Virus record (IMG/VR): IMGVR_UViG_3300022752_000173
Coordinates: 1-38,879 of that record
Direction: 5' to 3' (one strand)
DNA length: 38,879 nt
From: a virus
How positions within the stretch are numbered: the first letter of the stretch is position 1; each line of letters begins with the position of its first letter. The notes under the pieces are model-generated. The model saw nothing but the letters and a program-made list of their open reading frames with translations. It had not been told where the DNA came from and ran no database searches. Made by a program: the position numbers and the translations under genes. This document shows, piece after piece, positions 7,050 to 30,800 of the stretch.

Positions 7050-9134
7050 TTAACTAAGGAAAGCTTTGACCATTCCCCCTTGATTCATTGATGGAACAAG
7101 TGCATTTTCAGTTACCTTTTTAGTTATGGGTTCAATAAGGGTTGCAACCTTTTCCATCACGGCTGTTTGTTTTTGAGTTTCTTTAACTATTGGATCAGCT
7201 GCCTTGAAAGCACCACCACCTCCACCAATTCTTTGTAGGCTGGAAACTCCCTCGGATGCCTTGCCACCACTCATAGACTTTACCTTTGCTCCTAAAACTT
7301 CTGCCCCAGCAATCTCGCTAACTGCTTTTTCTGTAGGCTTTCCAGCTACCGCTAATGCATTTAATTGCCCAACAAGACCAGAGGTTGCCTTTTTAGCTTT
7401 TTCTCCTTGAGCTGGAAATTCTTCTAGAGAATTTTTAAGAATATTAAATGAATCTGTTGCACCATTGACTGCGGTGCGAACTCCATCTGCTATGTTTTCA
7501 AATCCAGCCGTTATTGTTTCGTCAGCAAATGCGGAAATACCAGCCTTTCTTTCTGCAAAGTTAGCCTCCATGCCAGAACCTTTAAAGCCACCAACACCCA
7601 TTAGACTTGCAACCGCTGGAAGCTTTGTGGCAAGTAGCTCTAGGGACGACTCAAACGCTGTTTGTATCCCAGCTTGCAAATAAGCTATTGGAGTCGCAAA
7701 TGCCTTTACGAGAGTACCAGCTATAATAGATAATGATCCAACAATTGCACTTCCTATTCCAGAAAGTACAGCAGTAGATACATCTGCTTCTAGTAGCCTT
7801 TTAAGCAGATTGGAAGCAAATGTAAATGACCTTTGAAGCAAATCCTCTAATACAATTCCAGCAGTTTCAAACGATGCCTTCAAAAGATCAAATATCATTC
7901 CACTCTTAAATGCCCCAGTAAGAACCTCAACCCCAAACCTAATTTGTTCTCCTAGCTTTGCTCCAAATCCAGAAAGCATATCGCCCCCCTCAAAAAGCTT
8001 AAAAAGCTCAAGGATTGAAGGAGCTACTGCTCCAGCCATCTCAACAAAAAAACCTCGGAAAAATGACCCAGAGTCACGGAGTTTTGCTGAAATTTTTGAA
8101 AAGTTATCTGCATTTTTTGCCAAAGATTGACCAAGCTGACTTTGCTTTGTTCCTAGCTCTGCGAATCCAGCCTCTTTGAATACTCCCTTTAGGGAAGCTC
8201 CAGCCCTGCCAAATATTGAGAACGAAGCAGCTGTTTGTTCTGCTGATGTGGAAAGGTTCGATATTGCCTTGCCGATAATCATAAACTGCTGTTCTGGAGT
8301 CATCTTCATCAGATCGTCCACATTGAGTTTAAGACGAGCCAGCATATCGTTTGTAGGCTCTCCGTCTGCGTTTACGCCAGTTAAAGCTCTCTGCATATTT
8401 TGAAGCGCAACAGCACCAGACATTGAGCTAACCCCAGAGTTCTTTAATAGTTTTTGAAGGTCAACAAGAAATGGAATACTTGCACCTGTTCTTCCTGCGA
8501 GATTTTTCATCTCATCGCCCATCTCGATTGCACTCATTATTCCAATCTTAAAGAATCTATCTAAAGCACCAAATGCAATACCAAGGCCACCAACCGCCAC
8601 TCCAACTGGTTTTAATATGCTTAAAAAGCCACGAAAAGCACTAGAAACAGCACCGCCAACGGCTGTGGTTGCACTTTTAGCCATATTTGCAAGGCCACTT
8701 GCTACCGAGGAAATCCCAGATAAGGCACTCTTTGTTGCTCCAGATATAGCTTGTAGTGCCTTTACGGCTCCAAAAATTGAAATTCCAGCAACAACAGCAG
8801 ATGCTCCAATAATCTTAAAGGTTGGTGGAATCTTTGAAAGTATTGTTCCAACTTGAGATGCAAATGTTTTTAGATTTTGAAATCCATCAGATACCCTTTT
8901 TATAGCCGTTGGAAGTGCATTAAAAATTGACTGTAAATCTTTTGCTCCTTTTGTGATTATGCTGATCCTCTCAGATACCCCAGTAACCAAATCAAAAACT
9001 TTCCATGTAGTCCTTGCCACACTCCCAACGGCATTTAATGAGCTTCCGAAAGACGCAAGCTTGCCTTTTGCGCTATCAATAGCCGAATTAAATTTAGATA
9101 CATCAACCGATATTGCTCCTTGTGCTGTTTTCAT
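7050..9134 (-). CDS. Tail tape measure protein
   Basis: This 694-residue protein sets tail length in siphoviruses and is ejected through the tail during infection. It shows the typical composition: Ala/Gly/Ser/Lys-rich, alpha-helical, with several hydrophobic stretches (around residues 105-130, 165-200 and 455-490) that could insert into the host membrane, and a conserved-looking central part (RTGASIPFLVDLQKLL). By the usual rule of about 1.5 angstrom per residue it predicts a tail near 100 nm. It lies after the tail chaperone region with one small gene between. The start overlaps the upstream stop by ATGA. Confidence 0.88.
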   Translation of the reverse strand: MKTAQGAISVDVSKFNSAIDSAKGKLASFGSSLNAVGSVARTTWKVFDLVTGVSERISIITKGAKDLQSIFNALPTAIKRVSDGFQNLKTFASQVGTILSKIPPTFKIIGASAVVAGISIFGAVKALQAISGATKSALSGISSVASGLANMAKSATTAVGGAVSSAFRGFLSILKPVGVAVGGLGIAFGALDRFFKIGIMSAIEMGDEMKNLAGRTGASIPFLVDLQKLLKNSGVSSMSGAVALQNMQRALTGVNADGEPTNDMLARLKLNVDDLMKMTPEQQFMIIGKAISNLSTSAEQTAASFSIFGRAGASLKGVFKEAGFAELGTKQSQLGQSLAKNADNFSKISAKLRDSGSFFRGFFVEMAGAVAPSILELFKLFEGGDMLSGFGAKLGEQIRFGVEVLTGAFKSGMIFDLLKASFETAGIVLEDLLQRSFTFASNLLKRLLEADVSTAVLSGIGSAIVGSLSIIAGTLVKAFATPIAYLQAGIQTAFESSLELLATKLPAVASLMGVGGFKGSGMEANFAERKAGISAFADETITAGFENIADGVRTAVNGATDSFNILKNSLEEFPAQGEKAKKATSGLVGQLNALAVAGKPTEKAVSEIAGAEVLGAKVKSMSGGKASEGVSSLQRIGGGGGAFKAADPIVKETQKQTAVMEKVATLIEPITKKVTENALVPSMNQGGMVKAFLS

Positions 9135-10112: not shown

Positions 10113-10486
10113 AGTTTTGTCATTATCCTTCTCTTTTGTTCAGCAGTTGCGTTTTTGGGGTAAAGAAGCGTTTTTCCTCCGTACTTTACACGCACCATCG
10201 GAATGCTCTGTTTAATAACATCTAAAAGCCGATCTCGGTTATGGGCGTATGCCCAAAGGTATGCCAAGGGTTCTTCGAGATTCATTTTTTCTAAGCCACC
10301 CTTCCACTTGTGAGCATCTCTAGTTACCTCATTGTTTACATCATCAAAGATAAAATTGACTTCTGTTTTTCCGTTTTCTTCGATACAGCAAGACTCATTA
10401 TCTTTCAGCTTGTGACCCATCGTGAGCAAGGCACAGGCCAGCTTAATATTGTTTGTGATGTAAAGGAAGTCGCCAGTTTTAATCAT
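10109..10486 (-). CDS. Hypothetical protein upstream of tail chaperone, DUF5659-like
   Basis: This 125-residue protein starts MIKTGDFLYITNNIKLACAL and contains VNFIFDDVNNEVTRDAHKW, a pattern seen in small phage proteins of the DUF5659 type in which a short strand-helix unit (xxxNxxLAxALLxxG) is followed by an F-F-D strand. Function in that group is unknown. It lies between tail tube-like genes and the chaperone, and overlaps the chaperone start by ATGA. The ribosome binding site is not recognisable; a repeated CAGATTCCTA element occupies the leader. Confidence 0.55.
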   Translation of the reverse strand: MIKTGDFLYITNNIKLACALLTMGHKLKDNESCCIEENGKTEVNFIFDDVNNEVTRDAHKWKGGLEKMNLEEPLAYLWAYAHNRDRLLDVIKQSIPMVRVKYGGKTLLYPKNATAEQKRRIMTKL

Positions 10487-10509
10487 AGGAATCTGAGGTT
10501 AGGAATCTG
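10486..10509. repeat. Direct repeat TAGGAATCTG x2 in the leader
   Basis: Two identical 10-mers (CAGATTCCTA on the coding strand) are 14 bases apart in the leader, the second ending on the A of the start codon. A third exact copy is in the leader of the zinc-ribbon gene at 21244-21253. Purpose unknown. Confidence 0.35.
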
Positions 10510-10529
10510 TGGGGGGGTTGTCTATATCT

Positions 10530-10886
10530 TTATGCTATTCCGTCTCGCTGAACGATCTTGTACTTAATTTTGGCAAAGTCTTCAGATGACTTGCTCAAAT
10601 TCACTTCTTCCACATAGTATCCACCAGTAAGACCGCCAAAACCAACAAGATTTGTGGGGCTAAATGATCCACCTTGAGTTGCAGAGTTAGTGGTCGTGAT
10701 GTAGCCCTCAAGATTGTATTCGTTCTTTTTCCCAGTAAAAGCCACGCAAGCAACGCCACCATTAATATTTTTAGCCTCCACCTTGTTCGAGGAAGAATTC
10801 ACGGAAAGGTTGGTTGCAACCATCGTGCTTACCGCACTTGAAATTCCAAAACTAGTGGCTGTTCCTTTGATTATGGCTGCTGACAT
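10530..10886 (-). CDS. Tail tube-like structural protein B
   Basis: This 118-residue, beta-rich, small-residue-rich protein (IKGTATSFGISSAV, VACVAFTGKKNEYNLEGYIT, NLVGFGGLTGGYYVEEVNLSKSSEDF) fits a tail tube or tube-related protein by size, composition and place before the chaperone and tape measure. It can be aligned over its C-terminal two thirds with the gene upstream (VE..NG...VA, G.SF..T, and a final strand pair), so the two may share the tube fold. No ribosome binding site is seen; the leader is CAACATAATTTATG. Which of the two forms the tube is not decidable from sequence. Confidence 0.55.
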   Translation of the reverse strand: MSAAIIKGTATSFGISSAVSTMVATNLSVNSSSNKVEAKNINGGVACVAFTGKKNEYNLEGYITTTNSATQGGSFSPTNLVGFGGLTGGYYVEEVNLSKSSEDFAKIKYKIVQRDGIA

Positions 10887-10889
10887 AAA

Positions 10890-11246
10890 TTATGTTGCAC
10901 TCCCTAGATTAGTGTAGCCAACGGCTGAAATCTGAACCTCAGAAAATCCATCGTTGGTAAGAGTCCTTGAGGCACTCTCGATAAAAAGAGTATCTACTCC
11001 AGTTAGGAATGTATTTAAAGTTTGAGTAAATGAAGCACCAATGCTTCCAGAAACAGAACCGCTAACAATCGTAATGGATGCCGAGCTATTAGGATTAGAA
11101 ATCGCTACCGCTTGGAATGTTCCGTTTCCACCCATAAGCTCAACTGGGTCACATTTAATCGTCTCTTCGTAAGAGCGAACCACAGCAGATGACTCATCTG
11201 TAGTTCCGAACTTGAGAGTGGTAAGACCGATAGTTGTGAGAGCCAT
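10890..11246 (-). CDS. Tail tube-like structural protein A
   Basis: This 118-residue protein (TTIGLTTLKFGTT, CDPVELMGGNG, then alternating strands of Ser/Thr/Val/Ile) has the same length as the next gene and a similar strand pattern. A PVELMGGNG-like segment followed by a strand-rich body occurs in many phage tail tube or virion proteins. It precedes the tail chaperone region. A TTGACA hexamer lies 16 bases upstream of its ATG and overlaps the stop of the preceding gene. Family assignment is tentative. Confidence 0.55.
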   Translation of the reverse strand: MALTTIGLTTLKFGTTDESSAVVRSYEETIKCDPVELMGGNGTFQAVAISNPNSSASITIVSGSVSGSIGASFTQTLNTFLTGVDTLFIESASRTLTNDGFSEVQISAVGYTNLGSAT

Positions 11247-11264
11247 TCTAGTTTACTATTTGTG

Positions 11265-11498
11265 TCAACCTTTGCGGATCAAAGTTTCTCTAATAAACTC
11301 CCAAGCAAGAGTCATAAGTCCACCAACAATAGCAATCATTCCTAAAGCCTTATGCTTCAACGCTTCTAAAGACGATACCCTATTGGATAGATCGGCAAAG
11401 TTAGAAAGAGAAGTCTCGACCATGTTATAAAGCTGAACTTGCCGTTCTTCCATTCTTGCAAGCCTCTCCCGAATCTCTGAATCGTGTTTAGTAGGCAT
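11265..11498 (-). CDS. Coiled-coil membrane protein, XhlA/holin-like topology
   Basis: This 77-residue protein has an N-terminal heptad-rich coiled coil (EIRERLARMEERQVQLYNMV then SNRVSSLEALK) and one C-terminal transmembrane segment (GMIAIVGGLMTLAWEFI) ending in basic residues. This topology is that of XhlA-type haemolysin/holin accessory proteins. It is far from the lysis cassette and lies among tail genes, so a role in membrane attachment during infection or assembly is also possible. I use the ATG; an upstream GTG would add 18 basic residues and overlap the preceding gene in another frame. Confidence 0.55.
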   Translation of the reverse strand: MPTKHDSEIRERLARMEERQVQLYNMVETSLSNFADLSNRVSSLEALKHKALGMIAIVGGLMTLAWEFIRETLIRKG

Positions 11499-11499
11499 T

Positions 11500-11670
11500 T
11501 TAGTCTTTACCACTTTTTTTGATGATCTTACGGATAGCTTTTCTGGCTTCACGAAGCTCTGTTACCAGACGAACCGCTGGCTCTCCTTTTTTGATGCATG
11601 GCTCAAGAAATCCTTCGTCCCAGAGATATTGAATTGCTTTAATAACTTCATTTTCACGATTGTATTTCAT
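11500..11670 (-). CDS. Small charged helical protein, 56 residues
   Basis: This short frame begins MKYNRENEVIKAIQYLWDEG and ends KAIRKIIKKSGKD. It fills an otherwise empty stretch, has an ATG, and its TAA is two bases before the next ATG (TAAAATG), as expected in a tight operon. The sequence is amphipathic and helical, basic at the end, without membrane segment or known motif. Support is context and composition only; no ribosome binding site is visible. Confidence 0.5.
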   Translation of the reverse strand: MKYNRENEVIKAIQYLWDEGFLEPCIKKGEPAVRLVTELREARKAIRKIIKKSGKD

Positions 11671-11697
11671 ATTTAAAGATAAGCCACATAAGCCACC

Positions 11698-11937
11698 TCA
11701 ACTGTCACCTATCTTTAACGCATGGTCTGCGATATATTGTTCTAATTCTTCTTCAGTATCTGCAATAACCATGGTCAAGGGGCTAGATGTGTACCCAGAG
11801 CATTGTATTGGTTGAATTGTAATTACCTTTGTATCAGCATCATAAATCATCCACCAGTCTAATTCCGTAGTATGAACTTCATCTGGAAATGGGATAATCT
11901 GTTCTGCATTTACATTTTGATTGGAATAAATTTTCAT
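11698..11937 (-). CDS. Small protein following the LRR tail protein, hypothetical
   Basis: This 79-residue acidic protein has two tryptophans in LDWWMIYD, a strand-rich centre and an acidic helix DTEEELEQYIADHAL at its end. Small acidic proteins directly after fiber genes sometimes act as fiber assembly factors or caps; that is only a contextual suggestion. The start follows the stop of the LRR gene by one base (TTAATATG), without a Shine-Dalgarno sequence. Confidence 0.5.
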   Translation of the reverse strand: MKIYSNQNVNAEQIIPFPDEVHTTELDWWMIYDADTKVITIQPIQCSGYTSSPLTMVIADTEEELEQYIADHALKIGDS

Positions 11938-11938
11938 A

Positions 11939-13267
11939 TTAATTTGTTGTTACTGTCCAGCCTCTAGAGATAAGAGTAGCCTTATCTGTTATCCCTTGGC
12001 CAGTAGGTGAAGCATTTCCTGTTCCACCCAAATTCAAAATTCTAGTACCAGTTGTCTTGTTTGCCAAAACAAAAGCTGCTAAGATTGCGTTTACTGCGTT
12101 AGCCGTTAAAAGATTATTTTCCGCCCTAAAATCACCCAGACTATTAGAGATATAGCCCGACACATTTTCTCCTGCAAAGCCTGTTAATTGATTTGAGTAG
12201 CAGTAAAACGACCGAACATAAGCCCCACTTAAATTTGGAATTAATCCTGTAAGTTGATTTGAGTAACAAACAAAATTTTCTAGAAAAAAACAATCCCTTA
12301 AATAGGGAATCGATCCTGTGAGTTGATTATTGTTGCAACGAAAATCTATCAAATCAGTTGTTTGGCTTAAATTCGGAATTGATCCTGTAAGTTGGTTTGA
12401 ATAACAATAAAAGAATTGTAAATTATTCAATCCACTTAAATTTGGAATTGTTCCTGTTAGTTGATTATTGTTGCAACGGAATATCCGTAAATTAGATAAT
12501 AAACTTAAACTTGGAATTGATCCTGTGAGTTGGTTTGAATAACAAGCAAAATCTATTAGACTATTCAATCCGCTTAAGCTTGGAAATGATCCTGTTAGTT
12601 GGTTTGAGTAGCAATAAAATATTCTTAGATTACCCAATCCACTTAAACTTGGAATCGACCCTGTAAGTTGGTTTTGGAGGCAAGAAAAATTTTGCAAATC
12701 GTTCAATCCGCTTAAACTTGGAATTGATCCTGTGAGTTGATTGGAGTGACAAACAAAATTTTGTAATCTAATCAATCCACTCAAACTTGGAATCGACCCT
12801 GTAAGTTGATTTGAGTAGCAATAAAAATTTTCCAAATTATTCAATGCACTTAAGCTGGGAATAGATCCAATTACTTTATTATCAAAAAATTGAATATTTT
12901 TGAAATTACTATTTTGAGCATAACCAGACAGTGCTGTAATGTCATTGGAATTGCATCTAAACTCTTGTAAATTAGGAAAAGCAGATAAATTAATAGTTCC
13001 ACCAAGTCTTGGAGAGCTTGTGCCACAGATAATTTTTGTAACAACGGCGTTGTCATTTTCAAGCTCAATACCATTCGTAGTCCCCAGAGTCTTATTTACA
13101 CTCACCCCGCTTGTGAGGGGCGTAGTTGTTCCGTCACCCCAGTTTACAGTCAATGCATCGGTGAAAGTCGCTACAAATCCTGTAACAATCTTACCAGAAG
13201 TAAATAAAAGGTTAGTCCAGAACCCAAGATCAAGCCCAAATATGTATGGATTAATTAGGAAGCTCAT
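11939..13267 (-). CDS. Leucine-rich-repeat tail protein with PKD-like N-terminus
   Basis: This 442-residue protein starts with a PKD-like strand pair (DALTVNWGDGTTTPLTSG, residues 37-54), continues with leucine-rich repeats and ends in a cap (AVNAILAAFVLAN, LNLGGTGNASPTGQG, SRGWTVTTN). Nine regular repeats of exactly 23 residues lie at 143-349, each containing C-[YNHL]-[SNQ]-NQLTGSIPxLSGL, and degenerate repeats flank them. Such proteins are usually ligand-binding surfaces. Placed among fiber genes, it most likely binds host surface structures. One cysteine recurs in most repeats at the CxxNQLTG position. No signal peptide is present, which fits a virion rather than a secreted protein. Confidence 0.75.
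   Translation of the reverse strand: MSFLINPYIFGLDLGFWTNLLFTSGKIVTGFVATFTDALTVNWGDGTTTPLTSGVSVNKTLGTTNGIELENDNAVVTKIICGTSSPRLGGTINLSAFPNLQEFRCNSNDITALSGYAQNSNFKNIQFFDNKVIGSIPSLSALNNLENFYCYSNQLTGSIPSLSGLIRLQNFVCHSNQLTGSIPSLSGLNDLQNFSCLQNQLTGSIPSLSGLGNLRIFYCYSNQLTGSFPSLSGLNSLIDFACYSNQLTGSIPSLSLLSNLRIFRCNNNQLTGTIPNLSGLNNLQFFYCYSNQLTGSIPNLSQTTDLIDFRCNNNQLTGSIPYLRDCFFLENFVCYSNQLTGLIPNLSGAYVRSFYCYSNQLTGFAGENVSGYISNSLGDFRAENNLLTANAVNAILAAFVLANKTTGTRILNLGGTGNASPTGQGITDKATLISRGWTVTTN
12221..12841. repeat. Nine tandem 69-bp repeats encoding LRR units
   Basis: The DNA repeats with a 69-base period inside the LRR gene; each unit encodes 23 residues. Variation between units is concentrated in the first third of each unit, and the core encoding NQLTGSIP is nearly constant. 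Such arrays can gain or lose units by recombination or slippage. Confidence 0.85.
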
Positions 13268-13638
13268 AGTGTTCCTATTAAGACGACTTTTAAGCCTTTG
13301 CCAGCAGTAGTATTGCCAATCTGATCAATGTCGATAGTAATTTCAGAGTCGTTAGCAATAGAGGAATCTGAAATGACGGCGGGAGAAGCTGAGGTTAGCG
13401 ATGTTTTTTGAGTCGCATCTATTGATAGTTTGGTCGAAAGCACACTAGTTCCGCTTTCGTTAATGTCCACAATGATTGCAGAGCCTGTTGGGGCGAGATT
13501 AACCGAGGCACGGACACCAGTAAGCGTAAAAGCATAGGGGGATCGAAAAGTAACTTTGTTTGTACCTACTGTAAGATTGCTTACTTCATCAGAGCAAGCA
13601 ACGACCAATTCAACAAGCCTTGCACGAAATAGTGGCAT
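13264..13638 (-). CDS. Fiber-associated beta protein
   Basis: This 124-residue protein contains SDEVSNLTVGTNKVTFRSPYAFTLTGVRASV (core VTFRSPYAFTLTGVRASV, residues 28-45) and VDINESGTSVLSTKL. This beta-sandwich pattern recurs in phage proteins near tail fibers of aquatic and environmental phages. It overlaps the LRR gene by 4 bases and follows the repeat-fiber gene by 9 bases, so the three are probably made together and could form one adhesion assembly. Confidence 0.6.
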   Translation of the reverse strand: MPLFRARLVELVVACSDEVSNLTVGTNKVTFRSPYAFTLTGVRASVNLAPTGSAIIVDINESGTSVLSTKLSIDATQKTSLTSASPAVISDSSIANDSEITIDIDQIGNTTAGKGLKVVLIGTL

Positions 13639-13647
13639 CGTTTGTTC

Positions 13648-14877
13648 CTAACTAACTTGTGCTACTCTTGCCGTACCAGCCGTTGCGAATACAGCAGAGT
13701 GCGTGATTGATGCTTGGTTTAGTGGTGCTTCGTAGTAGTCACCAGCAGATAGACGAACTTGGTAGGAAAGTGTAGTGCAAGTTGTTCCAACAGAAATATG
13801 AAGATTCCCAGCACCTTCGTTAAAAATTGTTAGTACTTCTCTTGTTGCATTAAATCCAGCAAGAACAGTAGATGGCGTTGTGCTTGTAAAGTTGCTAGTC
13901 GTAACCGATGTTCCTTGAATATTTGCTATAGTGACTGTGTTTCCAATCGTAACGCTTGCAATAGATACTGCCTGTGTTGCTGGAAAATTAAGAATTGAAG
14001 TCGATCCCGTAATTGTAGCAGTTCCCAAAATGCTTGTTGATCCAGTAATGACTGCCGTACCAAAAGTTACAGAAGCTTGCGTAAATGTGACTGTTTGAGT
14101 TGCGGGAATATTAAGAATAGAAACAGAGCCAGTAATAACAGAAGTTCCAAAGGTTACTGAGGCAGTTGTAAATGTTACTGAAGGTGTACCACTAATAGAA
14201 GCGGTTACAGAACCAATCTGAGCAGTTCCAGCCCCAATAATAACTCCGTGAGTTGCAATCTGCGTGAATGTTACCGAGGGAGTGCCGATGATGCTAGTCG
14301 AACCTGTAATTACTGCTGTGCCAAAGGTAACAGGAGCTTGAGAAAATGTAACTGATGCTTGGGTAAAAGTGACTGCTTGAGTTGCTGGAAAGTTTAAGAT
14401 CGAGGTAGAGCCTGTAACTACTGCCGTGCCGAAGGTTACAGAAGCAGTTCCACTAATTGATGCTGTAACTGCTCCTTTGATTGTTTGAACGCCCAAATCA
14501 TCTACATGAATTGGATAAAGCTTATTGTCTGCTAAATTGTATCCACCAATTTGAATAGCTTCTGGTGGTGCAGAGCCACCAATCACAACTTGAGCGTCTG
14601 ATAGATAGATTCCTCCACCAATCGTTACGGCAGAAGCTCGAAGCTGTGCGTCCGTAAGGCCACCAGTAATTGTTACTTGGCCTAGTGTGACTGTGATATT
14701 TTCTAGGGCATTTAATGTATTGGGCCCAAGTTCAACGCCCGAAACAGCCGTTGCTATATCTGTAATCCCTTGTGTACCGAAGGATATAACCGTATGGGCT
14801 GGGATATGAGCGTTACTTACAAGAATCGTTGAAAGCGTGGTTAAAGACTGATTCCCATCACGAATTGGTAGTGGCAT
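13648..14877 (-). CDS. Repeat-rich tail fiber protein
   Basis: This protein of 409 residues has an N-terminal part of about 135 residues, a central series of short beta repeats with the units ITGSTSILNFPATQAV, VTFTQASVTFGTAV and VTASISGT shuffled in varying order (about residues 135-320), and a C-terminal domain (LTIFNEGAGNLHIS, YQVRLSAGDYYEAPL). The composition, almost only Thr, Ser, Val, Ile, Ala and Gly, suggests a beta-helical or triple-stranded fiber shaft. I use the ATG preceded by AGGGGG; an upstream TTG overlaps the previous stop. The C-terminal domain resembles known phage virion end domains, and may be the tip. Confidence 0.65.
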   Translation of the reverse strand: MPLPIRDGNQSLTTLSTILVSNAHIPAHTVISFGTQGITDIATAVSGVELGPNTLNALENITVTLGQVTITGGLTDAQLRASAVTIGGGIYLSDAQVVIGGSAPPEAIQIGGYNLADNKLYPIHVDDLGVQTIKGAVTASISGTASVTFGTAVVTGSTSILNFPATQAVTFTQASVTFSQAPVTFGTAVITGSTSIIGTPSVTFTQIATHGVIIGAGTAQIGSVTASISGTPSVTFTTASVTFGTSVITGSVSILNIPATQTVTFTQASVTFGTAVITGSTSILGTATITGSTSILNFPATQAVSIASVTIGNTVTIANIQGTSVTTSNFTSTTPSTVLAGFNATREVLTIFNEGAGNLHISVGTTCTTLSYQVRLSAGDYYEAPLNQASITHSAVFATAGTARVAQVS

Positions 14878-14894: not shown

Positions 14895-15392
14895 TCAAAT
14901 AACTGCTAGATACTGCGAGTTTAGATAGTCGCTAAAGTCAAGTTCTGAAACTCCATCGCCAGTAGGATCTGGTGTAACGATAGCAGATATGACCAATCCC
15001 CTTTTCCAAGCTCTCTTGCCTATCTCAATCGTAGGCGTTTGTGATGAAATCCTTGCCATATAAACCTTTAGATCAGTAGAGTTATCTTGAATCTCGAACT
15101 GAAGGCTTTGCCCAGTTCCATATAAACAGGCAAAAATATCTAGATAGGTCGAGTCAAAAGTGCTGAATGACACTTTGGCAGAGCTATCGGAGTAATCTAC
15201 CGCTACTTGCATATTATATACACCGCTATAAGGAGTAACTAGTTGGCCTATTGGCCTTGCTGAAATGGCAATATATGGGAAAAGTCTTGCCCCTGTCCGT
15301 GTGGTTGTGTAAACATTCACCCCAGTAACCGTAGAAAACAATGAAGCTATGGATTGCTCAAGCTGATAATCTGGAGAATTGGGCATGCTCAT
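14895..15392 (-). CDS. Tail terminator/completion-like protein, copy B
   Basis: This 165-residue protein has an N-terminal helix (DYQLEQSIASLFSTVTGVNVY), then RLFPYIAISARPI, a strand VYNMQVAVDY, and a C-terminal strand region. The arrangement is matched by the upstream gene, indicating an old duplication. Position between the head-closure-like gene and the tail tube genes, with this helix-strand order, fits tail terminator or tail completion proteins (lambda gpU/gpZ zone), which join tail tube to head. The start overlaps the previous stop (ATGA). Family is inferred, not recognised by a strict signature. Confidence 0.5.
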   Translation of the reverse strand: MSMPNSPDYQLEQSIASLFSTVTGVNVYTTTRTGARLFPYIAISARPIGQLVTPYSGVYNMQVAVDYSDSSAKVSFSTFDSTYLDIFACLYGTGQSLQFEIQDNSTDLKVYMARISSQTPTIEIGKRAWKRGLVISAIVTPDPTGDGVSELDFSDYLNSQYLAVI

Positions 15393-15814
15393 TTTGCAGT
15401 TACCTTAACATCCATCAAAATATCCGTAGCCCAAGTCCGTGACGGAGAGACAATCCTTTTTCCGATGTTTGTAATGTTGGCTATATAAAACTCTAGGCTG
15501 GTCGAAGCCGTACTCATTTGTAGGGCTAGGTTCGGATCGGTGTACAAGGCTTGTTGAATCTCAAAAAACTTTTGATCATATCCTTGGTTAGAAGATGTAT
15601 CAGCCCTAGCCACATATGAAACTGTAACATTCAGATCAAAAATACCAGTAAACGGAGCAACCTCCTCGCTGTTTATTTTTGCATCTACATACACAAAGGG
15701 GAGAAGTCTTGGACTAGCCCTTTCCGATGTAAAAAAATTAACTCCAGTAACACCCGCCGAAGTAATGGCGTATGCTATGGAAGTCTCTACCTCGTTCTCA
15801 ATTGAATTCGTCAT
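15389..15814 (-). CDS. Tail terminator/completion-like protein, copy A
   Basis: This 141-residue protein shows an N-terminal helix (IENEVETSIAYAITSAGVTGVNFF), then RLLPFVYVDAKIN, EVAPFTGIFDLNVTVSY and a C-terminal pair of strands. The same series (xGVNxxTxxRxxxRLxPxxxxxAxxxxxxVxPxxGxxxxxVxVxY) is present in copy B. It overlaps the upstream and downstream genes by 4 bases each. Two tandem proteins of this type next to a head-closure-like gene suggest that one closes the tail tube and the other the connector, but this is inference. Confidence 0.5.
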   Translation of the reverse strand: MTNSIENEVETSIAYAITSAGVTGVNFFTSERASPRLLPFVYVDAKINSEEVAPFTGIFDLNVTVSYVARADTSSNQGYDQKFFEIQQALYTDPNLALQMSTASTSLEFYIANITNIGKRIVSPSRTWATDILMDVKVTAK

Positions 15815-16230: not shown

Positions 16231-16893
16231 TTAAAGGGTAATAATATTCGCCCCAAGCGTGTAATCGTCTTGATATACCCCTGTTGGCACTAGGTCATAA
16301 GACTCCCTAACGGCAGAAGCTATTATGGCTGGAGATGAGTTTATGCCTAGAAAGTTCCTAGCCCTTTGAATGAGGAAGGGCATATAGGCAACTGAACTAC
16401 AGCTTATCGCCTTCAGTCCGTTAATATCAAGTTCGTTCGGGCATAGAACTACAAGATTGTCCTTTCCGTACATTTCGACGGCCTTCTTGACCACCATAAG
16501 CGGATCTCGCCTAACCATCTGGCTTATCCCAAATGGAGCAACGAGGTCATAAACTCCAAGGTCTGGAGCCATCCAAATATTATCTAGGACGATCCTTTCA
16601 TCAACCGCCTCTGGAAACTCGCCTCCAAACACAAATTCTTCCCACCTTCTATCGCTTGCCCTGTATTCCTCATAAAGCAAAGGCCACACCTCCCTGTTGA
16701 ACACATAGTCAAACTTTTCATAGGCATCGTTAATTTTCTTATGCTTTACATAGGTTGTGCATTTTAAAATATCGGCATATTCATCCTTGCACTCAAAAAA
16801 TACTTCATCGCCCCTATCTGCAAACAGCTTTGCCAACGGCAACATTCTTAATATGTCGCCCAATCTCTGGTGATACTGTATTAGAACTTTCAC
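16231..16893 (-). CDS. GT9/heptosyltransferase-like glycosyltransferase
   Basis: This 220-residue protein starts with MKVLIQYHQRLGDILRMLPLAK (residues 2-21 hold the GT9-like RLGDILRMLPLAK block) and has a C-terminal block RARNFLGINSSPAIIASAV, the position where GT-B enzymes of family 9 bind the nucleotide sugar. At 220 residues it is shorter than typical heptosyltransferases (about 320-350), so part of the fold may be reduced. It is the last gene of a four-gene chain with ATGA overlaps and presumably acts on the same glycan. Sugar and acceptor are unknown. Confidence 0.6.
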   Translation of the reverse strand: MKVLIQYHQRLGDILRMLPLAKLFADRGDEVFFECKDEYADILKCTTYVKHKKINDAYEKFDYVFNREVWPLLYEEYRASDRRWEEFVFGGEFPEAVDERIVLDNIWMAPDLGVYDLVAPFGISQMVRRDPLMVVKKAVEMYGKDNLVVLCPNELDINGLKAISCSSVAYMPFLIQRARNFLGINSSPAIIASAVRESYDLVPTGVYQDDYTLGANIITL

Positions 16894-18743
16894 CCAGCAA
16901 AATATTCGGTAACTTTATGCTGTAAGGCTTTTTCAGATTCAAGCAACTGGATCTTCCTGCCCTTTGCATCTCTAGACTTTATTGCCAAGTCTGCGTTACT
17001 TTTGGTATAGGTATCCAATTGCTCATTATCCATAGAACCTCGTAGTCTTGCTGGTACTCCACATCCTGTGCAAAAGTGCTTAATCTGACCTTCAAATTCT
17101 CGGATTGGCTTTTTCCACCATCCCTCAACTACTGGATGTCCGTTGTCCGTGCCTCTTGCCAAATCGAAAGAAGCCGCCACCTCACAAAAATATGCTCTTA
17201 GATTGCCCTTGTTCTGAACGATGGATGCAGACCACTCCCTGTTCACATCACATCCAGCGATCTTTTCCCACATCTCCTTTTCTGGATACAGGTCTTTTAC
17301 TGCCGTCAGAAGGGGTGCGTGATGGGAATTTCCCACATAATATCCTCCATTGAATCCACGCTGATTGACCATTACATTGTGAAGGTCTTTCAGTTTTTCA
17401 TTCGCCCTTTCCTCGTTGTGAGGATTAAGATTTAATCCACCGAATGTCTTTTCAATTACCTCACGATGCTTGAAGTAGTTGTTCGTCCATAGCCCCCTTT
17501 GATGTTGATTGGGAATCTCGTCACGAAATACCTCGCATAACTTTTCAAACTGCGTATGAACACAGGGATTGCCTCCAATCATGGCGATGATTCCACCGAA
17601 ATCCTTTAGACTGCGAAGTGCCAAGCGGAAGTTTTCTGGGGTCATCTCCCACATGGAGTCTTGATTTTTAAGAAGGCGAGTGCAGTTAGAGCAAGCGAGA
17701 TCGCACTTATTTGTCACATCAATACAGATAATGTGCATATGCTCTGGGCTTCTCATCTTGCCAATAGCAATATCGGCGTAAGATTGACTCTCAAGATTCT
17801 CGGCTACTTTTTCCATAATAAAATCCTTTTCAAATATATGTCTATCTTTGGCTATGTTTTTCTGCTTTTCCTTGATTTCACCAATAGATAGCCGTTGGAT
17901 AAAGTCAGTCAAGCCAAACAAGTGTCGCTCCTCTGTGACATAGCAATACTTACTCCAATCAATTTTGTCTCCAAATGGAAACACATATTCGTCCGATACC
18001 AATATCGGTATTGAGCCATTCAGCAAAGCCTCTACAAACCGAAACGACCATCTGCCATACCCAGCAGGGCAAAGGGTGAATACCGACCTAGCCATAAGAT
18101 CGTGGCAGGTGATTTCCCCTAGTTTTTTTCTAACATCATAAGGAGATCCGATGACAATCTTTTCGCTTTCATATTTACTCTTAAATTCAAGCAATCTCCC
18201 GCCACGGATATGATCTGGGGGAAGGTGAAGCTGGGTCATGCTTCCAATAAATGAAAGCAGAATATCTCTGTTAACTTCCTTTTGCTTGATCGGCTCAGAT
18301 TGGTACGGAAGAATGGCTATGTCTTGCCTATGAAGAGTAGCCAATGACTCAAGTACAATTAAGATAAAGCGGTCATCCATCCAGCTATACTTTTTATCAT
18401 AAGCTCGAAGTGGGTTAGCTTCGTGCGTCATCTCATACCTTGACTCTGCTCTTTGCCCTACATCTCCAGTTGAAACAAGGATATGCCTTCCCTTATGAAG
18501 ATAGGCACAATGATTTACCAGAAGCTCTGGATCGACATTTGCGAATTGCAGTCCAGCCGTGAAGATAGGGACAAAGAAAAAATCAGCCTCATCTGGATTT
18601 TTTGTTTCGTACTTCTTGAAGAAGGTGTAAAAATCTACCAAGTACTGAAGATGCGGGTAGAGCCTATTTAGCTCTGCATAAAACAGGTTTTTCTGCCATA
18701 TCTCATTTGATAGTATGAGATCGTGGTAGATAAATATTTTCAT
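16890..18743 (-). CDS. Exostosin-like glycosyltransferase fused to a radical SAM domain
   Basis: This 617-residue protein has two halves. Residues 1 to about 325 look like an exostosin/GT47 domain: KIFIYHDLI, EADFFFVPIF (52-61), LSFIGSM (163-169), and the hallmark CPAGYGRWSFRFVEALLNGSIPIL (225-248). Residues 333-617 look like a radical SAM enzyme: CDLACSNC gives the cluster cysteines Cys347, Cys351 and Cys354, GGNP at 390-393 stands in for the usual GGEP, and C-terminal cysteines (498, 520, 558, 561) could hold an auxiliary cluster as in SPASM-type proteins. ATGA overlaps join it to genes on both sides. The reaction cannot be read from sequence; sugar or peptide radical modification are possible. 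Confidence 0.8.
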   Translation of the reverse strand: MKIFIYHDLILSNEIWQKNLFYAELNRLYPHLQYLVDFYTFFKKYETKNPDEADFFFVPIFTAGLQFANVDPELLVNHCAYLHKGRHILVSTGDVGQRAESRYEMTHEANPLRAYDKKYSWMDDRFILIVLESLATLHRQDIAILPYQSEPIKQKEVNRDILLSFIGSMTQLHLPPDHIRGGRLLEFKSKYESEKIVIGSPYDVRKKLGEITCHDLMARSVFTLCPAGYGRWSFRFVEALLNGSIPILVSDEYVFPFGDKIDWSKYCYVTEERHLFGLTDFIQRLSIGEIKEKQKNIAKDRHIFEKDFIMEKVAENLESQSYADIAIGKMRSPEHMHIICIDVTNKCDLACSNCTRLLKNQDSMWEMTPENFRLALRSLKDFGGIIAMIGGNPCVHTQFEKLCEVFRDEIPNQHQRGLWTNNYFKHREVIEKTFGGLNLNPHNEERANEKLKDLHNVMVNQRGFNGGYYVGNSHHAPLLTAVKDLYPEKEMWEKIAGCDVNREWSASIVQNKGNLRAYFCEVAASFDLARGTDNGHPVVEGWWKKPIREFEGQIKHFCTGCGVPARLRGSMDNEQLDTYTKSNADLAIKSRDAKGRKIQLLESEKALQHKVTEYFAG

Positions 18744-19288
18744 TTAACCTTTAGCCAGCAATCTCGTATAATTTCTGGAGCTTCAACAAGCTCGTCCACG
18801 GCACGGATTACTCCGTTATGAACTAAGGCATAGTCATGTCCAGCGAGTATCCCGCCCTTTTTAACCTTTGGCATCCAAGCAAGAATGTCTGCCTTCACGG
18901 ATTGGTATCTGTGGTCTGCGTCTATAAAAACCGCATCCAGAGATTCGTCTGCGTACATTTTGGAGGCCGAAACACTGTCAGTCCTAATCGGATTTATAAG
19001 ATTTATAACTGGCCGAAGATTGTCGATAAATGTTCCAAAAAGAGAGTTTCCCCTTATGTCGCTCATGTCCTTATGCTCCTGCGATCCAGACCAAGTATCC
19101 ACAACATCAATCCGTAGCTTTTTATGTTGTGCCTCTACCGCTAGGTAGCTTGTGCTTGCTCCCTTCCATGCGCCAACTTCTACGATATGCCCACCCATTG
19201 GGGCAGACTCGACTATTCTTTTATAAACATCTTGGTAGTTAAACCATTTTTCTCCAAATTTGTCATCCATCCAGTAGTGCTGGATCAC
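18740..19288 (-). CDS. Class I SAM-dependent methyltransferase
   Basis: This 182-residue protein has the Rossmann-like methyltransferase motifs: GGHIVEVGAWKGAST (32-46; SAM-binding motif I), RIDVVDTWSG (59-68; motif II), DAVFIDADHRYQSVKADI (118-135; motif IV) and KKGGILAGHDY (143-153). This combination is typical of the Methyltransf_24 group often found beside glycosyltransferases. It overlaps its neighbours by ATGA on both sides, so it is very probably part of the glycan pathway, for example O-methylation of a sugar. DNA methylation is unlikely because no catalytic (D/N)PPY motif is present. Confidence 0.8.
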   Translation of the reverse strand: MIQHYWMDDKFGEKWFNYQDVYKRIVESAPMGGHIVEVGAWKGASTSYLAVEAQHKKLRIDVVDTWSGSQEHKDMSDIRGNSLFGTFIDNLRPVINLINPIRTDSVSASKMYADESLDAVFIDADHRYQSVKADILAWMPKVKKGGILAGHDYALVHNGVIRAVDELVEAPEIIRDCWLKVK

Positions 19289-20964
19289 TTATTCCGTTCC
19301 TCGAAAATCTTCTTTCCAAGATCGTAGTTTGATTGTGCGTTATGGCGAACAAATACTTCGTCTTGTTGCCCATTGGTAAAGAATGGGTTCTGATGCTTAA
19401 ACACCAAGTCCCTTGCCTGTACTTGAATATCTTTTGTTCTTGTGGTGAATTCGTTGTCCGAGAAAATACCAGAGCATTGTGCGTATTCTGGGGCAAACAG
19501 ATTGCCACCCAAATAATCTATGGCTGGCTTTGTGCAGATTGCGATGCAAAGCAGATCGTCTGTTCGGTATCCGTCGGAAACAGCAAGCACGGCTGGCTTG
19601 GTTGGGTCTGGAAGCCTCTTTCGAATTTCCTCGTCCCACCCAACAGGGGGAATGAAATCATCCGATAACTGAATGATATATTTGCCCTTTGCCTGTTTTG
19701 CACAAGCATTCCACGCCCCTACACACTTGCCGTTTGGAACTATTACTTTCTCGTTTCCTGCGTACTCGTCGGCATCTACATCGACCCCAAGCAAATGCTG
19801 GATTTTATTTGGATGTTTTGCCATCGATAACCAAGCCCATCTTGCGCCTTGGAATCCGTTGGGTCTTGCCGTGGCATGGCATAGAGTAATATCGACCTCA
19901 CCAAAGTTCTTAACTTTATCCTGTTGAAGAAACTCTACCAGATCGTTCTGCCCTAATGCCCTAGCACATCTCTCATAAAGGTCTGGTGCTTCCCATTTGT
20001 AAATAGCTTCTTTCGTAGTCCAGTAGGCAATATTAGGGATTGGAATTGAGCAAGCGGAACGAGCTAGAGCCAACGCTTCGTTATAGTGCTTTCGTGCGTA
20101 GTAGTCCTCTGCGATATAAAATAACGCCTCGATTCTATGAGGGGCTAGTGCGTATGCACGAAAAAGCTCCTCACGCTTTGCCACTGGGTCAGAAAGGCAA
20201 CGACCAACAATAGTATGGCATTGAACACGGAGAATTGGGTCAAGCGTTGCATCGGCTAATGCTGTTTTTGCGTGTTGCATCGCCTCATCGTACTTGCCAG
20301 ACAAGAAGTATTCCTCTGCCTTGTAGAAGCGGAACAGATAATTTTCACGGATAGCTTCGTCTAAAATCCTATGATTTCTAGTTACGCTTGAACCTTTGTG
20401 ATCTATGGGTGCGTGAAGAATAAGCCCAGCGTGTGTTCCCATGGCTTTTGCACCCTCTGTGGATGTAGGTTTTAGCTGTTCGTGGACTGGGTATTTCCAC
20501 TTGAACTTTTTATTGCGAGTGATGCGTTCACGGACAGGACACAAGCCAGCAAGGGGTACGGAATACCCAGCAAAGATACAATCGTGGTCAGTTAGTTTTT
20601 CACCGATAGCAAAGAAGGCTTTTTCTGCTCCTTCCACAAGAACATCGTCAGCATCAAACCACATACAAAACTCTTGGGTGCAAGCCTCAAGTGCCGTGTT
20701 TCGTGCGTCTGCAAAGTTATCTAAATGCTCCCAATGACTAGCATCATCTTTGTTTTTATAGACTACTACTTTCGCTCCAAACTTCTTTCCGATCTCCTCA
20801 AGAATTGGAAGCCCTTCGTCCGTATGTTTTCCCATGGCCGAACAAAGCACGATTTCATCTGGCTTGAGTGCCTTGAAAGACTCTAAGGCTCTTGCAATAT
20901 ATTTTGACGCACACTCCCTAGATACGATTGCGTAAAGGGATAGGGTGAAGGGGAATCTGTCCAT
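19285..20964 (-). CDS. Two-domain glycosyltransferase with TPR-like middle
   Basis: This 559-residue protein begins with a GT2-type domain (LSLYAIVSRECASKYIARAL; metal-binding DADD at 104-107; FADARNTAL upstream of it). The middle (about 215-345) is helical with repeat-like pairs such as AEEYFLSGKYDEAMQHAKTAL and AEDYYARKHYNEALALARSA, as in TPR proteins. The last 210 residues form a second GT-A-like domain (GVDVDADEY near 394, YIIQLSDDFIPPVGW near 430-443). It may transfer two sugars or elongate a chain. It is the first gene of the ATGA-linked island. Confidence 0.78.
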   Translation of the reverse strand: MDRFPFTLSLYAIVSRECASKYIARALESFKALKPDEIVLCSAMGKHTDEGLPILEEIGKKFGAKVVVYKNKDDASHWEHLDNFADARNTALEACTQEFCMWFDADDVLVEGAEKAFFAIGEKLTDHDCIFAGYSVPLAGLCPVRERITRNKKFKWKYPVHEQLKPTSTEGAKAMGTHAGLILHAPIDHKGSSVTRNHRILDEAIRENYLFRFYKAEEYFLSGKYDEAMQHAKTALADATLDPILRVQCHTIVGRCLSDPVAKREELFRAYALAPHRIEALFYIAEDYYARKHYNEALALARSACSIPIPNIAYWTTKEAIYKWEAPDLYERCARALGQNDLVEFLQQDKVKNFGEVDITLCHATARPNGFQGARWAWLSMAKHPNKIQHLLGVDVDADEYAGNEKVIVPNGKCVGAWNACAKQAKGKYIIQLSDDFIPPVGWDEEIRKRLPDPTKPAVLAVSDGYRTDDLLCIAICTKPAIDYLGGNLFAPEYAQCSGIFSDNEFTTRTKDIQVQARDLVFKHQNPFFTNGQQDEVFVRHNAQSNYDLGKKIFEERNK

Positions 20965-21449: not shown

Positions 21450-22412
21450 TTACGAAGCGGAGTAAGAGGTCGTGATCAACTGCATCGCAGTAGAGTCGAT
21501 GACCTTGACCACACGATTCGAACGCACCCGAAGGATGTTCGAACGGCGACCTTCATCACGATAGCTCTCAGCAACGAAGGGAGCAGAAGCATCCTCGCTC
21601 CAGACAATCGTGCGACCCGCACCGCCAGAGGCGAAATCACCACCAGCAGTTTGTCCAACCGCCACATAGGTTGTGGGGAAGATGAACGAACCGCTGAAGG
21701 CTTGACCTTTAGCAGCTGAATTCCTTGCGGCTTTTCCAACTAACACTTTCTCAACGCCAGCCGCGGCGGCGATCTCTTGCTCAGACAACAGACGGCGAGA
21801 GTCAGTCGCAACAACACCGAAGAACTGATTCTGCGTCAGCGGTGAACGCCGAACGAGATCGAATACTTCTTGGTTCATTACAACCGTGTTGGCGATCACG
21901 CCCTGTTTCAGCAAACGCTGTTTGGCTGCTGCCACATCCGCTACGAAGTTAATCGTGGAGAGGTTGGTAACAGTGTAGTTGACCAAAGCGGCTGTTGCGG
22001 TGAAGGTGCTGGCATTAAACAAGGTAGAAGCACATTCGGCTTCATGCCCGATTTGAATGTTGCGGAGGAGGATCTTCGCAGTCTCGGTTTCTAGGCCGAA
22101 AAAGCGTGACACATCTGACGCAAGTGCATCAGGTACAACCTCTTCCAGTCCGTATTCAACGCATGTGAAATTATCGTTATCGAACGCCCTCGAAGAGCGT
22201 GGATATGCGCTGCCGGGAGCCACCAAGGAGGCATCGCTGTTCAAAAGTTCAGCGTTGCCCAAGTTTAACTTGAGGTACTGTCCAGCACGAACTGGGCTGT
22301 TATAGATCGGGAACAAATCGGTTCCGATAAATCCCTGATCTGCTTGGCTGGCCTGAATGACCGCCGTTGTGATGTCGCCACGAAGAGTGGCGTTTGAGGT
22401 GAGATAAGACAT
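21450..22412 (-). CDS. Major capsid protein
   Basis: This 320-residue protein is the best candidate for the major capsid subunit. It begins MSYLTSNATLRGDITTAVIQ, contains LFPIYNSPVRAGQYLKL, an acidic/aromatic EYGLEEVVPDAL block, VADVAAAKQRLLKQG with NTVVMNQEVFDLVRRSP (typical of the spine helix and following strand of HK97-fold proteins), and ends with ESYRDEGRRSNILRVRSNRVVKVID, a terminal strand pattern common in phage capsid proteins. The gene follows decoration and protease genes, has a good ribosome binding site (AAAGAAAGGA) and noticeably higher GC and C-ending codons than the tail genes, consistent with strong expression. Confidence 0.85.
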   Translation of the reverse strand: MSYLTSNATLRGDITTAVIQASQADQGFIGTDLFPIYNSPVRAGQYLKLNLGNAELLNSDASLVAPGSAYPRSSRAFDNDNFTCVEYGLEEVVPDALASDVSRFFGLETETAKILLRNIQIGHEAECASTLFNASTFTATAALVNYTVTNLSTINFVADVAAAKQRLLKQGVIANTVVMNQEVFDLVRRSPLTQNQFFGVVATDSRRLLSEQEIAAAAGVEKVLVGKAARNSAAKGQAFSGSFIFPTTYVAVGQTAGGDFASGGAGRTIVWSEDASAPFVAESYRDEGRRSNILRVRSNRVVKVIDSTAMQLITTSYSAS

Positions 22413-27774: not shown

Positions 27775-27893
27775 TCCTTCTTGGAATCTTTGGTCTTCTT
27801 GATCTCTTTGAGTGCTTCGATCATGTTGTCCAGAGATTTGTCATCACGGCTGGACAATTCATCTGCCAGCGGATCAGTCGAAGAGGTTGCCAT
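27771..27893 (-). CDS. Small charged protein after the multi-domain gene
   Basis: This 40-residue product reads MATSSTDPLADELSSRDDKS and then a lysine-rich helix (MIEALKEIKKTKDSKKD). It overlaps the end of the multi-domain gene by 20 bases, with AAAGG before its ATG, and its TAG overlaps the opposing gene's stop at CTAG. The composition is plausible for a small virion-associated or scaffold-like protein. Evidence is positional only. Confidence 0.45.
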   Translation of the reverse strand: MATSSTDPLADELSSRDDKSLDNMIEALKEIKKTKDSKKD

Positions 27894-30800
27894 GGGTTGC
27901 CTTTACTGGAGCAGTGCCTTTGCTCCGATCTGCGTTTCCGTCTAGAGAATAACCGATGTCGGCTATCCCTTCAGAAGTTAATTTGCTCCAAGTGTTCCTA
28001 GCTTGTTGGGCAGATCCCTTGATGTAATTGTAGGGAACATAGCGTCCGTTGGGTTTATTGAATCGTTGGGAAGCTCTGGTCAAAGCCACTTTATCATCCA
28101 CATCCACATGAACTATCCCGATTTTATATCCAACCGATTTTAGCGTTTTTGCCATGTCTGCAACCTTATTAGAGTTTTTACCAGTGATGTCGATCAAAAG
28201 ATTGTGATTTTCCATAACTGCCCTTGGGAATACGATCTTCTCGGATATAAGCGCAGACTCCTCATGGAACGCACCAGCATTCCAGCCCTCGAATCCCTTT
28301 GACTTACCCTTAACCGAATCGGGATCGATCTTAGTTGTTTCTTTTCCGTTTAGGATCTTTTCTGCAAATGGTCTTCCAGTAGTCGTTTTCCCGCTGGCTG
28401 GAGATCCCATGAGAATTACTGCAATAGGATTGTCCGACTTGGCCTTTGGATTCAGTTCGCTTTCAATAACGGAATCCTTCCAAGCCTTATGTTCTGGGGT
28501 TGGGTTTTCAAATGTTTCTACGATGTCTTTCTTTTGGATGTATCGCTTGGGATCTCTGAGCGACCAATGGGTTACTGGGGCATTCTCCGAACCCTCTGCT
28601 TGGGCAACTTCCTTTTGCAATCTAGCCATCTTTTCAATTGTTGCTTTGGTTTTTGGCTCTGCATTTAGTCTTTCAATCTCTTTTTCAATTTCATCAATTG
28701 AACTGCTTGCTTGGGATTGTTTCTCGCCCTTGGATGATTTGCCCTTTGTCTTGCCCTTGGCTCCTCCACCGCCCCCTCCACCCTTCCCAGACCATCTTCC
28801 CTTTTCATCCCTTGGCTGATCTGCACTATAGAACTCAATCTTTTCTCCGTTGTATTGGAAGACAAATGACTCGACGGCTACTGCTTCGTCAAACTGGAAT
28901 CCCTCGGAACCATCATCTGGAAGTTCAATCACGATGGGTACATAAATCAACTTACTGCCATCTGCCAATTCTTTTGTCGCCACAGGGGATGGTTTGGGGC
29001 CGTTCTCGTAAACATATTTCCTAATCGAATCGACCTCGAAGATCTGCATTTTTTTGATGGCACTTGGAGATACTGCGCCGTCCTTGGTAAAGATTTTTGA
29101 CACAGCGGCTAACCCAGTCTTGCCCATCTTCTGAGCCTTGGTTGTTGGGATATTGTCGGCAACGCTTTTAAAGCCATCTGCTAATACGCTGATAATCCCG
29201 ATCATCTGCTTCCCGCCAATCTTGGGTGATGACCCAGAACGCAGTACACCGTACTCCATGGCTAGATCCAAACTGTCCGTGCTGTACACCTTGCCACCAC
29301 CCCAAACGCCACTTTTAGAGGGTTTTAGGCCGTCTCTTCGTATGTCTTTAAGCACATCTGCCGAAGTTCCGTGGTAGAGGGTAGTAGCCTCTCCAGTCTG
29401 CTTGCTTGCCTCCGCTGGATTATCTTGCGCCCATCTGGGTGTGGGTGTAGCTCCTTCAGCTATTGCTCCACCACCAGTCCACCTTCCAGAATTATCCCTC
29501 TGTTGGTTTGGATCGAAAAACTCTATCGCTTGATAGCTCCTGTAATAATTACGCCCTCCCCTTCGTTGTAATCCGAGATGAACTCGATTCGGGAAAGATC
29601 GCTCATAGTTGTCGATGATTCCTTTATAGGCTTTTTTTCCTGCAATCCTTGTGTCTCCACCGATGAACTCTCCAACGCCTCTGACTGCTTCTGATTTTCC
29701 ATTTATTGCTCCTAGAAATTTGGCAACATTAGCGGTCAACTGCGATCCTTGGTCTAGGATTGTTACGCTAGTCTTGGCTCTGTCGCCTACCATTGTTCTA
29801 AAACTAATTCCATTATCTGACAATATTTTTCTGACCTCATCCATTGGCCTGTCTGCTGAGATTTTATGCAGAATATCGGGGCCGTCCTTCTTCTTCTGAA
29901 AGGCGACAACTGCTTTTTGGTTTAGGCTCGCCCCCAGTTTGGATGCCGTGTATTTAAGTTGGTCAAAGTCCTTCACTCCCTTTACATCGATCTTAATCGA
30001 ATTCTCTGCGCCATCCTCCCAGTCACCCACCCCAGACTCGACCTTTCCATCCATGTCTTGCTTCTTAATGGCATCTCTTGCGATGCTTACTGCTCTGGCA
30101 TGTTCTGGCGAATCGGTCATTTTCTTCGCCTCTTCGTAATTCATGTTCTCTTTGATGTTCGGGGAAACAAGGATCTCGCCACCGCCCCCACTACCAGTCC
30201 ACTTCCCAGAGGCATCTCTTTCTTGATTTGGATCGTAGGCGAAAGTAGTTACCTCAAATGTCTTCTTTCCCTCAATCTCTTCACGAATGGCAACTGCAAT
30301 TGCATCTGCCAAGTAGTCTGCCACATCGTCCATGTCTGGATCTTTTTCGAGCGTTACAATATTACCGTTTGCCGACATGGGGCGAACCCCGATTCCCTTG
30401 CGAACTATGTTTGAGACTTGCCTACCGCCTTCAACTTTTCTGTATTCAGCTATTGCCCCCTTTACGAATCCTCTTAATGCGGATTGCCCAGCAACGATGG
30501 CTCCGACCTGTGGATTGAACAAAGACCCGACGAGAATTTTATACCTGTCTCCATGTGCGCTTTTGACTGCTTCGATAGCCCCCTTCGATCCAATACCGAT
30601 TGTTCTGGAAACTCCACGCAAGAATTGCTGGCCGTTGTCGCTGGCAAGCCAATTCTTAATTTGAGAGGCTTTAGAAGCACCATACTGCCCAGCCACCTTG
30701 GCTCCATTGGCAATAGCTGTAATGCCATCTACAGCCCCTTTTACGCTCGATTTTGCCATATCTAGGGCTGGATTTCCCTTTTGAGCCTTCTCGATAAGCT

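Follow-up and report, generated by a model that had tools for sequence, protein, structure and literature searches.

Gene content of the fusion locus

We analysed a viral window, meaning the whole stretch of 38,879 nucleotides of IMG/VR record IMGVR_UViG_3300022752_000173, and found on its minus strand a coding sequence (16890..18743) for a 617-amino acid (aa) protein with an ATG start, a TGA stop and no internal stop. The original prediction had described this gene, without naming the strand, as a single uninterrupted frame that joins an exostosin-like glycosyltransferase to a radical SAM enzyme, and both halves are indeed present. The N-terminal half (residues 1-317; 17793..18743, minus) belongs to GT47/exostosin, as its score exceeds the gathering threshold across most of the domain (PF03016, E=2.3e-24, 86.7 bits against a cut-off of 33.4; residues 45-275 cover profile positions 49-283 of 293), and a profile built from ten GT47 halves found human EXT1 at 1.6e-13. 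The exostosin hallmark lies where it had been predicted, at residues 225-248 (CPAGYGRWSFRFVEALLNGSIPIL; 18000..18071, minus), and is largely invariant across the GT47-half alignment. The sequence suggests that this half is a sugar transferase, with inverting glycosyl transfer as its predicted activity. A GT47-like gene without radical SAM also occurs in the cultured cyanophage Synechococcus phage S-SKS1 (L018, 5602-6447), in a cluster of GDP-fucose synthesis and glycosyltransferase genes.

The C-terminal half (residues 318-617; 16893..17792, minus) is a radical SAM domain of the twitch type, assigned from a structure model, matches to SpeY and BtrN, and stand-alone relatives. It carries a CxxxCxxC motif (C347/C351/C354; 17682..17705, minus), predicted to hold the SAM-binding 4Fe-4S cluster, and four twitch cysteines (C498, C520, C558 and C561; 17061..17252, minus), predicted to hold an auxiliary 4Fe-4S cluster.

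The fusion gene is part of a cassette of four genes on the minus strand that overlap by 4 nt at each junction. The first encodes a GT2-TPR-GT2 glycosyltransferase of 559 aa (19285..20964) with TPR repeats and two stretches matching PF00535 (3.8e-11), the C-terminal one (0.00026) falling just under the Pfam cut-off. The second, whose end overlaps the fusion start, is a SAM methyltransferase (Methyltransf_24; 18740..19288); this slot is taken by a different methyltransferase in two of the related contigs (L003 and L012) and is empty in three others (L026, L027 and L083). The last, overlapping the fusion stop, encodes a 220-aa protein (16231..16893) that is conserved with the fusion. Its likeness to GT9 heptosyltransferases is a resemblance seen by eye, since Pfam, PHROG, NCBIfam and PDB-profile comparisons returned no match. 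The cassette is placed between the major head protein, encoded directly upstream (21450..22412, minus; phrog_1005, 4.1e-27), and downstream structural-side genes; beyond them comes a tape-measure-like protein (7050-9134). A close relative, L173 (head protein 97% identical), keeps the GT2-TPR and GT9-like genes in the corresponding region (10854-13866), lacks the methyltransferase and the fusion, and has a different methyltransferase downstream of the 220-aa gene. By this natural swap, the fusion behaves as an exchangeable module within a glycosylation cassette that is otherwise retained.

Three other regions of the window drew our attention. Among the tail-side genes, 11939-13267 encodes a leucine-rich-repeat protein (LRR_4, 6e-21) that may serve in adhesion or host recognition. 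The genes at 14895-15392 and 15389-15814 may be a duplicated pair of tail-completion type; in relatives, the homologue of the latter is followed by a paralogue with 25-31% identity. Directly after the portal gene, a 1265-aa protein (27874-31671) has a kinase/ATPase-like C-terminus (polynucleotide kinase PHROG, 4.7e-8).

Conservation of the join

The identical GT47-radical SAM join was found intact in ten other IMG/VR contigs, with 72-95% identity in seven (L001-L006 and L012), more distant sequences in L026 and L027, and a truncated copy in L083. Both halves evolve under purifying selection, with a pairwise dN/dS of about 0.02-0.10 for pairs that allowed an estimate of dS, and the constraint is stricter on the radical SAM half. 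Together, these observations refute a missed stop or a sequencing or assembly error between the halves, which the original prediction had named as a result that would refute it. In the radical SAM tree, the fusion proteins form a single clade (support 100/99). The radical SAM half and the stand-alone proteins share an ADxAIxKMRxP start, and the join is therefore close to linker-free, as the half begins where the stand-alone proteins begin. A model of the full-length fusion from ten sequences reached a pLDDT of 45 and its structure was left uninterpreted.

The radical SAM half has a twitch fold

Exactly seven cysteines are invariant in an alignment of 45 diverse members, namely the three of the CxxxCxxC motif, which had been predicted at residues 347-354, and the four that had been noticed near the C-terminus. 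All seven are kept in 45/45 sequences, so that the loss of Fe-S cysteines in homologs, the other refuting result named in the original prediction, is not observed. PF04055 (Radical_SAM) matches residues 343-414 with 21.1 bits against a cut-off of 29.5, and the relatives scanned with this model likewise stay below the gathering score. Despite these sub-threshold matches, the half is a divergent member of the superfamily by motif and by its modelled fold, which is unambiguous: the domain modelled from the 45-sequence alignment has a pLDDT of 94 and a pTM of 0.91. A structural search ranked SpeY first (Z 17.9 over 238 residues at 3.2 A) and BtrN second (Z 13.4), with the next match at 11.2. Foldseek concurred on both (2e-9 and 2.5e-5, respectively), and BtrN also ranked top in a sequence-profile search of the PDB (5.5e-5). 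Sequence identity to the two enzymes is at most 17%.

In the model, one of the four twitch cysteines precedes a beta-hairpin, one follows it and the remaining two are found where the next helix ends (in model numbering, C181, hairpin 189-201, C203, helix 230-243 and C241/C244), as described for the twitch of BtrN (PMC6231123). The domain thus shows the Cys-hairpin-Cys-helix-Cys layout of BtrN and SpeY with a single auxiliary set. The twitch half alone gave no relevant match when compared with the PDB by sequence profile, and the assignment accordingly rests on structure and cysteines. The radical SAM part of the original prediction holds, while its SPASM part does not: the SPASM motif (CX9-15GX4C-gap-CX2CX5CX3C-gap-C) requires seven cysteines and only four C-terminal ones are conserved here.

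BtrN is a two-electron dehydrogenase of a cyclitol alcohol in which all four twitch cysteines ligate one 4Fe-4S cluster (PMC9012708). A fold like that of BtrN and SpeY points to a carbinol-centred reaction. The shared fold does not fix the reaction, as the twitch class also includes MoaA, which cyclises GTP, and SkfB, which acts on peptides. Among carbinol-centred reactions, we favour oxidation of a sugar over its epimerisation, which is less likely. As an epimerase, the radical SAM half would invert the carbinol carbon and a cysteine would re-donate the hydrogen, as in NeoN and HygY. To judge from the title of a HygY study cited in PMC10991966, a single cysteine can turn twitch epimerases into dehydrogenases and vice versa (Cys249 in NeoN), and candidates for such a residue exist in C403, present in 41/45 sequences, and in C340 and C394, conserved in nearly all of the main clade. 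However, the 45-sequence alignment contains no eighth invariant cysteine, C394 is Val in L094, and the nearest solved folds are dehydrogenases. The missing NeoN-like cysteine leans to oxidation and the near-conserved C403 leaves room for epimerisation, which we consider rather unlikely.

Relatives in phages and bacteria

A profile-guided scan of IMG/VR recovered 66 viral loci, and a broader scan kept 80 of 93. In most phages, the radical SAM domain is encoded by a separate gene of about 300 aa. A scan of genome contigs with a narrower alignment gave no match, and bacterial members emerged only with a broader alignment, which returned ten loci; eight clearly belong to the family, at 52-60% identity. 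Three loci, on contigs of metagenome-assembled genomes (MAGs), carry a GT2 domain in frame behind the radical SAM domain (L095, L097 and L098; 2.8e-27 for the GT2 domain of L095, that of L097 being assigned by eye), and GT2 is also fused C-terminally to the radical SAM domain in the IMG/VR contig L154. Three others (L091-L093) have a C-terminal extension that looks, by eye, like an FkbM methyltransferase, though Pfam gave no confirmation, and in a Pelagibacteraceae member (L096) the domain stands alone. L094 has a phage-type neighbourhood and probably derives from a phage, its contig having been binned with a MAG. A distant bacterial relative (L109) has a C-terminal domain that looks GT-A-like by eye and sits on a long branch, which makes its position in the tree uncertain. 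Close members were rare in the genomes sampled around these relatives, with the seed genome as the only one in each of two orders; three further sampled genomes gave distant matches.

These relatives bear on a trivial reading of the protein, in which two independent enzymes share a reading frame by chance and without functional coupling. Most relatives are separate proteins, so fusion is not required; nevertheless, the phage fusion is a single old clade held under purifying selection, and fusion to a glycosyltransferase arose separately in bacteria with the domain order reversed. We consider a chance fusion very improbable.

No relative of the radical SAM domain was found at E<=0.01 among 50,697 records of cultured phages and 72,556 plasmids. 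Outside its core motif, the family is not covered by any NCBIfam or PHROG model; the PHROG matches of the window member are weak, and we rejected the best NCBIfam match, "tetraether lipid synthase" (27 bits against a cut-off of 450, core motif only). Consistent with the remark in the original prediction that such a pair had not been seen described, our searches of the open-access literature found no description of it. The superfamilies and twitch chemistry are known, but the family, its architecture and its setting appear undescribed in that literature.

Linkage with glycosyltransferases

We grouped 64 anchored phage loci into 29 clusters at 90% identity and detected a glycosyltransferase fused to the radical SAM domain or within two genes of it in 28 of them. 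Gene picking had initially given 23/29, to which tblastn added a GT2 gene in L047, L049, L068, L080 and L059; in L033, L035 and L037, the neighbour was called GT-A-type from a weak Anp1 match (8.8e-5, below the cut-off). The sole cluster without a glycosyltransferase (L055) is cut at the contig edge. GT2 genes also lie near the radical SAM gene in three more distant relatives (L162, L168 and L170). Among the bacterial members, L096 is accompanied by genes for a GT61, a nucleotidyltransferase, a dehydratase and a GT2, all within about 6 kb. A GT25 gene lies directly upstream in L091; a second radical SAM gene (10314-11900) and two GT25-like genes were noted nearby.

Phages of the L007 type have the gene order sugar-nucleotide enzyme, GT2, radical SAM, terminase. 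The first of these genes in L007 (6014-6877) is a homolog of UDP-glucuronate decarboxylase (UDP-xylose synthase), with human UXS1 at 4.8e-98 and the next family at 2.3e-32, which makes UDP-xylose the first donor candidate in these phages. Relatives of this gene occur near about 11 of the 29 clusters; in the fused lineage, none lies near the fusion.

In phages, the radical SAM domain is therefore usually a separate gene beside GT2 genes, which answers whether the two halves occur as neighbours elsewhere. The proposal that sugar transfer is coupled to a radical step gains from this, functional coupling being strongly suggested, while the pairing extends beyond this protein. Fusion in two domain orders and adjacency in every phage cluster that could be assessed speak for a role of the radical SAM enzyme in glycan building.

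Many twitch and SPASM enzymes act on peptides, and the lower-ranking structural matches of the model include SuiB, anSME and SkfB. The protein could thus be a maturase of the RiPP type that modifies a virion protein or a small peptide, with glycosylation as a parallel event on the same target. We regard this as improbable: the stand-alone form has about 20 residues ahead of its first barrel strand, too few to hold an N-terminal RiPP recognition element, the nearest folds are small-molecule sugar-alcohol enzymes, and the partners are glycosyltransferases, sugar-nucleotide enzymes and methyltransferases. Of the substrates first proposed for the radical SAM half (peptides, sugars or cofactors), the structural neighbours point to sugars, with alcohol dehydrogenation or epimerisation as the reaction.

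Proposed function

We propose, as the probable explanation, that the fusion is a bifunctional glycan-tailoring enzyme that combines sugar transfer by GT47 with oxidation by the radical SAM domain, most likely for glycosylation of a virion protein. The GT47 domain would transfer a sugar from an NDP-sugar donor, and the oxygen-sensitive twitch radical SAM domain would then act on the transferred sugar, its acceptor or its donor. Cleavage of SAM would yield a 5'-deoxyadenosyl radical that abstracts hydrogen from a carbinol carbon, and the second electron would pass to the auxiliary cluster ligated by the four cysteines, forming a keto-sugar as expected of a dehydrogenase like SpeY or BtrN. The main variant of this scheme would be epimerisation at the same carbon. 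The GT2-TPR-GT2 protein, the methyltransferase and the 220-aa GT9-like protein would be co-translated partners, and the cassette, made with the head and tail genes, would most likely glycosylate a virion protein. This target is suggested by the gene position and by the reported glycosylation of mycobacteriophage capsids.

The same chemistry could instead serve to modify a host surface glycan during infection, e.g., as a superinfection block. Phage glycosyltransferases have often been assigned to O-chain modification (PMC7029224), and the bacterial members adjoin genes of surface-polysaccharide type. Yet a simple hydropathy scan of the four cassette enzymes gave no candidate transmembrane segment, and the cassette lies between head and tail-side genes in at least eight contigs, with the gene next to terminase in other phages; we therefore judge a host target somewhat unlikely and retain the virion protein as the preferred one. 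A wider reading, which we put forward tentatively, is that twitch radical SAM dehydrogenases form a phage-borne family that remodels virion glycans in place after glycosyl transfer, giving keto or epimerised sugars, with the transferase physically fused. Viral glycan biosynthesis would then have its first radical SAM step, and phages would share the enzyme with an undescribed bacterial family in which it is fused to another glycosyltransferase in reverse order.

If the proposal is correct, radical SAM sugar chemistry, mainly known from antibiotic pathways, would extend to phage glycans, and one defined protein would tie sugar transfer to radical tailoring. Oxidised sugars, invisible to sequence-based glycan prediction, would join the repertoire of virus surfaces. 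The near-universal presence of a fused or adjacent glycosyltransferase in the phages checked suggests that phages radically rework the sugars that they build. The stand-alone relatives of about 300 aa are convenient for assay, and the UXS1-like neighbour suggests which donor to try first.

Comparison with known systems

Glycans on the capsids of mycobacteriophages Che8 and Rita have been linked to phage glycosyltransferases (PMC11256854), which is a precedent for the proposed target; it differs in that no radical SAM step is mentioned there. Epimerases of the NeoN/HygY/AviX12 type, likened here by description, are also of the twitch type and act on sugars already in an oligosaccharide or aminoglycoside, but they are not known to be fused or phage-borne.

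SpeY is an enzyme of an antibiotic pathway, that of spectinomycin, and its label as a dehydrogenase comes from the PDB entry title. It is the closest solved fold (PDB 7wzv/7wzx/7x0b), with a radical SAM core plus twitch and about the same length as our domain, but shares 12-17% identity with it and is not fused to a glycosyltransferase. BtrN (2-deoxy-scyllo-inosamine dehydrogenase, PDB 4m7t) is the second-closest fold, the top profile match and has the same four-Cys auxiliary layout; it differs in its sequence (14% identity), its substrate, which is a free cyclitol, and the lack of a glycosyltransferase partner.

The N-terminal half matches nearly the whole GT47 domain of the exostosins (human EXT1/EXT2), with an SFRxxEAL-type stretch that aligns with EXT1. 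EXT1 is a larger protein with a second glycosyltransferase domain of a different kind, whereas the partner domain here is a radical SAM enzyme.
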